Shown: positions 4,908 to 23,034 of the stretch, piece by piece | Layout of the letters: the number at the start of each line of letters is the position of its first letter | Numbering within the stretch: position 1 is the first letter of the stretch | Source of the DNA: OCS116 cluster bacterium AG-390-A19 | Lineage (GTDB): Bacteria; Pseudomonadota; Alphaproteobacteria; MED-G09 | DNA length: 64,000 nucleotides | Direction: 5' to 3' | NCBI GenBank assembly: GCA_003278145.1 | Contig: QCGV01000001.1 | Coordinates: 265,616-329,615 of the forward strand | Notes under the pieces: model-generated | Database searches by the model: none | Seen by the model: the letters and a program-made list of their open reading frames with translations, nothing else | What the model was told of the DNA's origin: nothing | Position numbers and translations under genes: made by a program

Positions 4908-4963
4908 GACTCTATATTTTGTATGAAAAATAAATCTTTAAAAATTTATTGACGTTGTGACTC
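4908..4963 (+). promoter_or_regulatory. ccrM upstream region: two GANTC sites and a CtrA-like half-consensus site
   Basis: Between rnhB and ccrM there are GACTC at 4908-4912 and 4959-4963, both targets of the enzyme encoded next door. TTAA-N7-TTGAC at 4938-4953 differs by one base from the CtrA consensus TTAA-N7-TTAAC. In Caulobacter the ccrM promoter is CtrA-activated and its leader carries GANTC sites, which gives a precedent. Chance matches to short AT-rich motifs are frequent in this genome, so function is inferred. Confidence 0.45.
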
Positions 4964-4986
4964 CTCAGGATGAGGATGCTTTTGTA

Positions 4987-6111
4987 ATGTCAAAAAAATC
5001 TATTAACAAAAAAATTAAATTACCTTTAAATAGGATTATCAATGGAAATTGTATCGATATCATGATGTCTTTTCCATCTAATTCAATAGATGTTATATTT
5101 GCTGATCCTCCATACAACCTTCAGTTAAAAAATGAGTTATCAAGACCAGACTCATCAAAAGTTAATGGTGTAATAGAGGACTGGGATAGATTTAAAAGTT
5201 TTAAAGAATACGATCAATTTACAAAAGAATGGATGGCTGAGGCTCAGAGAATACTTAAACCTGAGGGAACAATATGGGTTATTGGTTCTTACCATAATAT
5301 TTTTCGAGTTGGTAATATTATGCAAAATCTTGGTTATTGGATACTTAATGATATTATTTGGCATAAATCTAACCCCATGCCTAATTTTAAGGGAACGCGA
5401 TTTACCAATGCTCATGAAACAATAATATGGGCATCAAAAAATCATGATAGTAAATATAATTTTAATTATCATGCTATGAAATCATTAAATGAAGGAACTC
5501 AAATGCGGTCAGATTGGCATCTTCCAATTTGCTCAGGTAATGAAAGATTAAAAGATATAGATGGAAATAAAATTCATTCAACACAAAAGCCTGAAGCACT
5601 TTTGTATAGAGTTTTACTATCCTCATCTAAAAAAGATGATATTGTCCTCGACCCTTTTTTTGGTACAGGAACAACTGGTGCAGTAGCAAAAAAATTAGGA
5701 AGAAATTTTATTGGTATTGAGAGAGAAGTTTCTTATATCAATGCTGCAAAAAAAAGAATTAGAGAAATTATTTCTACTGAAGATGAATTCTTATCAACAA
5801 CAGTTTCGAAGAAAGCTCAAAAGAGAGTTCCTTTTGGAAGCTTGGTTGAAAATGGCCTAATTAAACCAGGGTCAGTTTTAAGAGGTCCAAAAAATCTTAA
5901 ATCAAGAAAATTTATGGCGACTGTAAGGGCGGATGGCAGTCTTTTAATGAATGGTGATAGTGGATCAATTCATCAAATGAGTGCAAAAATACAAGGCAAG
6001 GAATCATCTAATGGCTGGACCTTTTGGCATGTTGAGAGAAAAGGTAAGTATGAGCTTATAGATAATTTACGTTCTGAGTTTTTGGAAGTTGATAAAATTA
6101 AAAATAATTAG
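4987..6111 (+). CDS. ccrM: CcrM-type adenine-N6 DNA methyltransferase (GANTC)
   Basis: This is an orphan beta-class DNA methyltransferase expected to methylate the adenine of GANTC and to act in cell-cycle control. The catalytic motif DPPYNL is at residues 40-45. The SAM-binding motif DPFFGTGTTG is near 222-231, the order that defines the beta class. The last 100 residues (GSLVENGLIKPGSVL to the end) form a RAMA domain, as in CcrM but not in most restriction-linked HinfI homologues. No restriction endonuclease gene is adjacent. I chose the ATG at 4987; a GTG at 4957 would add 10 residues unlike the family. It converges with ubiA, overlapping by 14 bases. Confidence 0.95.
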   Translation: MSKKSINKKIKLPLNRIINGNCIDIMMSFPSNSIDVIFADPPYNLQLKNELSRPDSSKVNGVIEDWDRFKSFKEYDQFTKEWMAEAQRILKPEGTIWVIGSYHNIFRVGNIMQNLGYWILNDIIWHKSNPMPNFKGTRFTNAHETIIWASKNHDSKYNFNYHAMKSLNEGTQMRSDWHLPICSGNERLKDIDGNKIHSTQKPEALLYRVLLSSSKKDDIVLDPFFGTGTTGAVAKKLGRNFIGIEREVSYINAAKKRIREIISTEDEFLSTTVSKKAQKRVPFGSLVENGLIKPGSVLRGPKNLKSRKFMATVRADGSLLMNGDSGSIHQMSAKIQGKESSNGWTFWHVERKGKYELIDNLRSEFLEVDKIKNN

Positions 6112-21060: not shown

Positions 21061-21407
21061 TCAGATGGTTGGATGATCGCTTTTTAAAGAGGAAAGTCCG
21101 GGCTCCATGAGAGACAGTGCCGGGTAATACCCGGCGAGGGTGACCTTAGGGAAAGTGCCACAGAAAAAATACCGCCTTAGGGTAAGGGTGAAAAGGTGCG
21201 GTAAGAGCGCACCGCTTATATGGTAACATATTTGGCAGGGCAAACCCCACTGGGAGCAAGACCAAATAGGAATAACGTTGGCTTAGCCAGAGAATTTCTC
21301 ATTCTAGTTGTTCGGGTAGGTTGCTAGAAATATGCGGTAACGTATATTCAAGATGAATGATCATCGCTTTTTTAAAGTACAGAACCCGGCTTATAAATCA
21401 TCTGACA
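21061..21407 (+). ncRNA. rnpB: RNase P RNA, bacterial class A
   Basis: This is the catalytic RNA that matures tRNA 5' ends. Conserved core blocks are visible: GAGGAAAGTCCGGGCTCC near the 5' end, GCCGGGTAATACCCGGCGAGGGTGACC, AGGGAAAGTGCCACAGAAA, GGTAAGGGTGAAAAGGTG, and the 3' core ACAGAACCCGGCTTAT. The terminal P1 stem is formed by TCAGATG at the 5' end and CATCTGA at the 3' end, which sets the boundaries within a few bases. It occupies most of the 565-base gap between the GST gene and mraZ. Confidence 0.97.
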
Positions 21408-21460
21408 TTCATTTTCAGCTTATAAAAAAATCTTTTAGAACTTTTAAAAATAAGTAAAAT

Positions 21461-21516
21461 TTAATTTTTTTTTAATTTAATCCCATTGACTCCCATAATA
21501 TCCCATGATAATCCAT
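21461..21516 (+). promoter_or_regulatory. mraZ/dcw promoter with phased MraZ boxes
   Basis: TCCCAT occurs at 21481, 21491 and 21501, and a variant ATCCAT at 21511: four boxes with an exact 10-base period and 4-base spacers. On the reverse strand these read TGGGA every 10 bases, which matches the known MraZ operator (TGGGN repeats with 5-base spacers). TTGACT (21486) and GATAAT (21507) overlap the boxes, so bound MraZ would block polymerase and repress its own operon. GACTC (GANTC) lies at 21488-21492, and TTAA-N7-TTAA lies at 21461-21475. Confidence 0.75.
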
Positions 21517-21577
21517 ATTTAAGTCTTTAATTTATAAGATTAGGTTATTCTTTTGCTTAAAAAAACTGGAGGGTTTT

Positions 21578-22057
21578 TTGAAAATTTTTTTATCAAGCGC
21601 AGTTAATAAAATTGATGCTAAAGGTAGGATTTCAATTCCCGCTTCTTTTCGAAATGTTCTAGAATTTCAAGGATATTCAGGTGTTTATTTATTTCCTTCT
21701 TTTACTTCCAATGCAATTGATGGAGGAGGTTTAGAGCTAATAAATCAAATTTCAGAAAGTGTTGAGAGAATGCAGTTATTTGCTGAAGAAACAGACGCTT
21801 TATCAACAGCGCTTTTTGCTGATACTTATAATCTTTCATACGATCAAGATGGAAGAATATCTCTTCCAGAGAGTTTAATAGAGCATGCAAACTTAAAAGA
21901 TAAAGCTATCTTTGTTGGTCAAGGTAGAAAGTTTCAAGTTTGGAATCCTTATCATTTTGAAGAATTTAAGGAAAAAGTAAGGGCTAAAGCTCTTGAGCAT
22001 AGAAACCTCATAGGACCTGTTGAAAATAATAGAATGAAAGCTGAGGAAATAGATTGA
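21578..22057 (+). CDS. mraZ: Transcriptional regulator MraZ
   Basis: MraZ is a DNA-binding protein of two AbrB/SpoVT-like repeats that represses the division and cell wall operon it heads. It starts at TTG 21578 behind a good GGAGG site. The first repeat reads SAVNKIDAKGRISIPASF, and the second reads YNLSYDQDGRISLPESL, each with the conserved DxxGRI-P core. The 159-residue length is normal. Its stop overlaps the rsmH start (TGATG). Four matching operator boxes lie about 70-100 bases upstream. Confidence 0.97.
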   Translation: MKIFLSSAVNKIDAKGRISIPASFRNVLEFQGYSGVYLFPSFTSNAIDGGGLELINQISESVERMQLFAEETDALSTALFADTYNLSYDQDGRISLPESLIEHANLKDKAIFVGQGRKFQVWNPYHFEEFKEKVRAKALEHRNLIGPVENNRMKAEEID

Positions 22058-23034
22058 TGGATAATAATGTTCCTGCTCATAAATCTGTTATGATGAATGA
22101 AGTTTTAGAAATATTAAATCCAAAATCAAATGAAACCTATATTGATTGCACTTTAGGTGCAGGAGGACATACTAGAGCAATTCTTGAAAGTGCCAAATGT
22201 CATGTAATTGGAATAGATAGAGACCCAACAGTCTTTTCGCTGAATGAAGATCTCTACAAGCATTATGGCGATAGATTAACTCTTATTAAAGGAAGGTTTG
22301 GAGAATTAAAAAATCATATTTTTAATATTGGTATAAAAAAAGTTGATGCAATTTTTATAGATTTGGGGGTTTCATCAATGCAGCTTGATACTCCTGAGAG
22401 AGGATTTTCTTTTCGCTTTGATGCTCCACTAGATATGAGAATGGACGACAGTAAGACAACCGTATTTGATATAGTGAATAAATACAAAGAGGAAGATTTA
22501 GCAAAAATTATTTATTTATTTGGAGAAGAAAGAAAATCAAGAAGGATTGCTAAGAATATAATAGAGTATAGAAAGAATAAAAAAATTGAAACTACATTTG
22601 AGTTGTCAAATATCATCAAAAATTCAATTGGAGGAAAATATAAAAAAATTCATCCATCTACAAAAACTTTCCAAGGTTTAAGAATTTACTTAAATGATGA
22701 ATTAAAAGAATTATATCAAGCCCTGATATCATCTGAAAGTATTCTGAATGAAGGTGGAAGATTGATAGTAATATCATTCCATTCTTTAGAGGATAGAATT
22801 GTTAAAAATTTTATAAAATATAACTCGATTTCAGAAAAGAAATATAAATTAGAAAAAACAGAATTACCTTTTTATTATAAGAAAAAAAGAGTCACAAAAC
22901 CCTCGGAAATCGAGATTAATGAAAACCCAAGATCTCGATCAGCTCACTTACGATATGCATACAGAACATCTGCAAAGGCAGTGTTAGAAAATAATTTACA
23001 TAATTTTATAAGATATGGAGGGGTAAGTGTTTAA
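22057..23034 (+). CDS. rsmH: 16S rRNA (cytosine1402-N4)-methyltransferase
   Basis: RsmH (MraW) methylates C1402 in the ribosomal P site. The N-terminus HKSVMMNEVLEIL and the SAM motif DCTLGAGGHT are canonical. DLGVSSMQLDTPERGFSF and FHSLEDRIVKNF complete the family signature, and the end has NPRSRSAHLRYA. I place the start at ATG 22057, overlapping the mraZ stop by one base. An in-frame TTG one codon earlier is less likely. Confidence 0.97.
   Translation: MDNNVPAHKSVMMNEVLEILNPKSNETYIDCTLGAGGHTRAILESAKCHVIGIDRDPTVFSLNEDLYKHYGDRLTLIKGRFGELKNHIFNIGIKKVDAIFIDLGVSSMQLDTPERGFSFRFDAPLDMRMDDSKTTVFDIVNKYKEEDLAKIIYLFGEERKSRRIAKNIIEYRKNKKIETTFELSNIIKNSIGGKYKKIHPSTKTFQGLRIYLNDELKELYQALISSESILNEGGRLIVISFHSLEDRIVKNFIKYNSISEKKYKLEKTELPFYYKKKRVTKPSEIEINENPRSRSAHLRYAYRTSAKAVLENNLHNFIRYGGVSV

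Follow-up and report, generated by a model that had tools for sequence, protein, structure and literature searches.

A putative MraZ operator lies reversed on the mraZ/dcw core promoter in Alphaproteobacteria

MraZ is among the most widely conserved bacterial regulators and heads the group of division and cell-wall genes. The protein is expected to form large rings, and its DXXXR motifs are important. The MraZ operator of Escherichia coli and the autorepression of the dcw cluster were reportedly described by Eraso et al. in 2014. As at the locus reported here, E. coli has direct TGGG-core repeats of 10-bp period upstream of mraZ; its phased boxes, however, lie on the gene strand from 37 bases past TTGAC onward, beyond the -10, whereas the boxes described below are on the other strand and cover the -35 to the -10. 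The PmraBc promoter of Burkholderia cenocepacia carries four 7-base repeats with 3-base spacers, on a fragment that MraZ binds in gel shift; these repeats share the 10-bp period of the present locus but lie downstream of the -10, overlapping the start site (PMC7761207). Mollicute MraZ sites, given as AAAGTG[T/G] in work cited in PMC8475190, are also direct repeats at a single locus at mraZ, but have a different core sequence. MraZ-mediated repression has been reported in both E. coli and Mycoplasma (PMC8475190). In the open-licence PMC literature we found no description of MraZ boxes in Alphaproteobacteria.

The window, by which we mean the whole stretch of DNA analyzed, comprises 64,000 nt of OCS116 cluster bacterium AG-390-A19 (GCA_003278145.1, contig QCGV01000001.1, positions 265,616 to 329,615 of the forward strand). 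Among named relatives, OCS116-cluster and PS1-clade genomes are the closest, with MraZ 88-90% identical. The protein encoded in the window was assigned to the MraZ family based on PF02381 matches in two stretches and an NF001477 score above the cut-off of 162, and its sequence contains the DXXXR motifs DAKGR and DQDGR. The mraZ start codon is TTG in all eight loci of the window's genus (L003-L010) and ATG in two sister genera; the TTG start may possibly damp translation. Downstream lies what we take to be rsmH, at the head of the remaining dcw cluster, which extends to at least 34874; these gene names are assumed from familiarity with the families and from gene order. The RNase P RNA gene rnpB is directly upstream of mraZ, an arrangement shared by 14 of the 20 scanned loci (counting that of the window; 8 of the 14 are from the window's family), and no terminator-like hairpin was reported between the two genes on the + strand. 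About 15 kb upstream of mraZ, the same window encodes the methyltransferase CcrM, whose NCBIfam score is below that model's cut-off of 830. GcrA is encoded elsewhere in the same genome. Coordinates are collected in Table 1.

Table 1. Features of the mraZ promoter region and its surroundings, numbered from the first base of the window.
Feature	Position	Strand	Remarks
rnpB, RNase P RNA class A	21061-21409	+	Rfam RF00010, 317.6 bits
MraZ box 1	21481-21486	(-)	TCCCAT on +, ATGGGA on -
MraZ box 2	21491-21496	(-)	TCCCAT on +
MraZ box 3	21501-21506	(-)	TCCCAT on +
MraZ box 4, degenerate	21511-21516	(-)	ATCCAT; coincides with -10 hexamer
Predicted -35, TTGACT	21486-21491	+	straddles boxes 1 and 2; TTGAC register in class promoters
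GACTC (GANTC, CcrM target)	21488-21492		overlaps -35 TTGACT and box 2
Predicted extended -10, TG-A-TAATCC	21506-21514	+	TG 21506-21507, -10 21509-21514; 17-bp spacer from -35
Predicted transcription start	~21521	+	placed about 7 bases past -10
Ribosome-binding site, GGAGGG	21568-21573	+	sequence reading
mraZ	21578-22057	+	TTG start, 159 aa; PF02381 69.8 bits; NF001477 163.6 bits
rsmH (mraW)	22057-23034	+	head of following dcw cluster; open reading frame list, name presumed
ccrM, GANTC adenine methyltransferase	4957-6111	+	N6_N4_Mtase + RAMA; NCBIfam CcrM E 7.6e-177, 587 bits

A reading made from the letters alone (hereafter the sequence-only reading) had proposed four phased MraZ boxes that overlap the -35 and -10 candidates of the dcw promoter. 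Both parts of this proposal are supported. The boxes have a period of exactly 10 bases, with the qualification that the fourth is degenerate, and the predicted promoter elements fall beneath them. Thus, the window contains what we required of an MraZ operator, at least three direct TGGG-core repeats of 10-bp period adjoining mraZ. A single copy of the three-box array is present in the 64-kb window and none in 100 dinucleotide shuffles, and a varied hexamer repeated three times at any constant period from 7 to 14 arose in 8 of 20000 trials on the 168-bp intergenic region randomized by a Markov model; together, these tests exclude chance as the source of the array. Allowing up to one mismatch, the threefold CCCAT array has no second place in the whole genome besides mraZ. 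The genome scan returned four matches, two of them overlapping at mraZ (0 and 1 mismatch) and two elsewhere (2 mismatches), and its reversed-pattern control returned one.

This promoter was not among the reports of a generic sigma-70 promoter scan, so comparative evidence was used instead. The -10 hexamer TAATCC matches TATAAT poorly, and the G, T and A of an extended TGNTA motif are kept in all 15 promoters available from the window's family. Across the class, TTGAC sits in one of two adjacent registers relative to the boxes in 71 of the 76 promoters that have an exact TTGAC (register 0 in 51, a one-base shift in 20); 15 of the 91 class upstream regions with arrays have no exact TTGAC. Alignment of the 51 register-0 promoters on TTGAC gives TTGACNCCCATNNNNTCCCATGNTATCCCAT, in which the G, T and A of the TGNTA motif never vary (51/51), although these columns were outside the selection criteria. 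Judged by its sequence, TTGACNCCCATNNNNTCCCATGNTATCCCAT comprises a -35 and an extended -10 separated by a 17-bp spacer. Under the rule that transcription starts about 35 nt past TTGAC, four of five Hyphomicrobiales loci examined (L226, L227, L229, and L230) have predicted starts 171, 174, 177, and 177 nt upstream of mraZ, and all four combine a box-on-promoter array with a long predicted leader; the fifth, L228, had no match to the promoter pattern. Published mraZ leaders measure 170 nt in Sinorhizobium meliloti (Weber et al., PMC5089854), 268 nt in R. sphaeroides and at most 70 nt in Caulobacter (PMC5089854). The resemblance of the predicted Hyphomicrobiales starts to the S. meliloti value is an agreement between relatives only. 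A CtrA-like TTAAN7TTAA motif at 21461-21475, within a T-run, was rejected as a candidate: the motif is no commoner than chance predicts (14 vs. 13.7 expected) and is not kept in relatives, whereas a CtrA-controlled promoter was taken to need a motif both above chance and conserved.

The array is conserved well beyond the window. An MraZ match was obtained from 15 of 18 genomes in the window's family, and all 15 retain the array, so that the loss of phasing in close relatives that the sequence-only reading had named as evidence against an operator is not seen. The stretch CCATTGACTCCCATNNNATCCCATGNTA is kept in these 15 promoters, variation being confined to the linkers and to boxes 1 and 4, and the flanks and leader diverge while the core is near-invariant. 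At least three boxes at 5/6 matches are present in 91 of 111 non-redundant class upstream regions, a non-random sample of 35 loci from a listing of MraZ matches (33 used) with the best Pfam scorers as the rest, from which eight loci (MraZ start missed by the motif), five duplicates and match G052 (of 51) had been left out before counting. The pattern TTGACNCCCAWN5CCCAW was found in 79 of 289 class genomes and its reversed control in none (0/289). Most of its matches (72/83) lie just upstream of mraZ on the mraZ strand, with 11 of 83 elsewhere. Pfam detected MraZ in 245 genomes, of which 78 carry the pattern, vs. one of the 44 in which it did not; in G029, which belongs to these 44, MraZ is matched weakly, and thus the absence of a Pfam match does not prove the absence of MraZ. 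A longer pattern that includes TGNTA, searched with up to one mismatch, was found in 136 of 385 genomes (control 0/385).

Scored with degenerate pentamers, at least three phased boxes lie opposite to the gene strand in 90 of the 111 class upstream regions and in all 15 from the window's family, and 21 of the 111 have no three phased boxes; none have them on the gene strand (0/111 for the class, 0/126 for class and family together). Among 30 loci from other Pseudomonadota, which were drawn from matches to E. coli MraZ, the same pentamers gave phased boxes on the gene strand in 14, mostly past the -10, and on the opposite strand in none. Pentamers were used because scoring with the hexamer ATGGGA/TCCCAT proved too strict for other classes, where forward was better in 11 of the 30 loci and reverse in 8, with 11 ties. 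The position also differs, the last box starting a median of 26 bases after TTGAC in the class (74 promoters) vs. 58 in the other loci (12 promoters), counting those that have TTGAC nearby. These strand counts make the reverse orientation the class rule, and the comparison of sequences indicates that an MraZ operator flipped and moved onto the core promoter is the rule in Alphaproteobacteria. The sequence-only reading was right that the boxes are reverse complements relative to the gene. Its match to gammaproteobacterial operators holds in part: core and period are those of E. coli, but strand and position are not, and in place of an E. coli-type operator on the gene strand past the -10, the window has one on the reverse strand across the -35 and -10.

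Very probably, these boxes form an autoregulatory mraZ/dcw operator of an alphaproteobacterial form, through which MraZ occludes the promoter and so represses its own operon. The ATGGGA repeats, phased at 10 bp, would be contacted by an oligomeric MraZ ring along a single helix face, over a stretch of roughly -40 to -5. The predicted -35 is where box 1 joins box 2; the 17-bp spacer is taken up by boxes 2 and 3, and the extended -10 coincides with box 4, such that bound MraZ and sigma-70 RNA polymerase would exclude each other from promoter DNA. As the boxes are superimposed on the -35, spacer and -10, joint occupancy by MraZ and polymerase would be impossible, and we propose autorepression by occlusion on this ground. 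The conserved box columns at the -35 and -10 could reflect constraint on the promoter and not an operator, but the CCCA repeats in the spacer are no promoter elements. It is improbable that MraZ binds the boxes without occluding the promoter, bending or wrapping it so that expression is fine-tuned or even activated. Such a role would fit the large rings that MraZ is expected to form (PMC7761207), the many chains in related PDB entries (1n0e, 9sx6, 9qlg, and 9qlr) and the placement of all boxes on one helix face; against it, the boxes sit directly on the -35 and -10, and the known effect of MraZ on dcw is repressive (PMC8475190). We consider it highly improbable that the repeats have nothing to do with MraZ and are instead a conserved quirk of the promoter or the site of another regulator. 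CtrA motifs upstream of mraZ are reported for S. meliloti (PMC3616915); yet core and period equal those of known MraZ boxes, and the pattern is almost confined to MraZ-bearing genomes and to the region upstream of mraZ.

The array might in addition be a methylation switch, in which CcrM methylates GACTC, the methylated site is bound by GcrA, which brings in RNA polymerase, and MraZ and methylation modulate or exclude one another; on balance, we regard this as unlikely. The sequence-only reading had placed a GANTC site between boxes 1 and 2. The site does contain the last three linker bases, but it also takes in the first two bases of box 2, across the -35. With CcrM in the window, GcrA in the genome and GANTC in the promoter, the locus has the components that we required of a CcrM/GcrA promoter, which makes methylation at the dcw promoter plausible. 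A switch is also favored by the presence of GANTC in all 15 family promoters and by its depletion in the window (131 seen vs. 209 expected), a depletion also found in other CcrM-bearing genomes (PMC3973325). On the other hand, TTGAN yields a GANTC whenever TC comes next, which means that a box beginning with T creates one by itself when it adjoins the -35, and box 3, which has no GANTC, is equally kept (15/15). In promoters with the longer pattern, GANTC is present in 15 of 103 from CcrM-bearing genomes vs. 11 of 33 from genomes without CcrM, in a tally of 136 for which mraZ adjacency was checked in part, at least two genomes (G131 and G138) have no Pfam MraZ match, G033 (RAMA match below cut-off) was counted as CcrM-bearing, and incomplete genomes may be false negatives. 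When the window's family is left out, the counts are 10 of 98 vs. 11 of 33 (Fisher p 0.004), and by family, the window's included, 8 of 56 vs. 9 of 25 (p 0.04); these p values ignore phylogeny, and AT content is a possible confounder. The tally supersedes a set of 60 promoters in which, among the 56 outside the family, GANTC was present in 3 of 43 with CcrM and 7 of 13 without. By local GC in that set, the corresponding counts were 0/3 vs. 6/8 below 50% and 3/40 vs. 1/5 above 50%. GcrA presence was not associated with GANTC in an early set (without G101 and including the MraZ-less G100). GANTC is thus rarer where CcrM is encoded, whereas a conserved methylation switch would lead one to expect the reverse, and the special role suggested for the site is not borne out. 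On these counts, the window's family is among the minority of CcrM-bearing lineages that keep GANTC here.

The sequence-only reading had also known of no description of an interplay of this sort. We found none described for MraZ; MucR, however, is reported to occlude GANTC from CcrM, and the same is proposed for autoregulators in general (PMC5172544), a precedent that lends the switch some support and shows that this kind of interplay is not unheard of. The main texts of four CcrM/GcrA papers, PMC5172544 and PMC3973325 among them, do not name mraZ (0 occurrences each). CcrM/GcrA promoters of Caulobacter and Brevundimonas resemble the present one in having a promoter GANTC and in that both proteins are encoded (PMC3667746, PMC3973325, PMC7987155), but here GANTC is a by-product of box register and is not conserved in the class. 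An interplay of MraZ and methylation in the PS1 clade is possible and, on present evidence, unlikely. There, GANTC frozen in the -35 and box 2 might conceivably set up a three-way competition, with late-cycle CcrM methylation tuning GcrA-RNA polymerase against MraZ, an outcome we doubt. If true, the cell-wall and division genes would be timed by methylation acting on an operator from which GANTC is absent in most other CcrM-bearing alphaproteobacteria.

The operator proposed here is ordinary in its purpose, and its class-wide architecture is one for which we found no description. The MraZ operators that we found described are those of E. coli, Burkholderia and Mollicutes; to these would be added a whole class with a reversed, promoter-borne operator. 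With the consensus TTGACNCCCATNNNNTCCCATGNTATCCCAT, the dcw promoter can be located in alphaproteobacterial genomes that lack annotation, and the mode of repression, occlusion or a block in the leader region, becomes directly testable.
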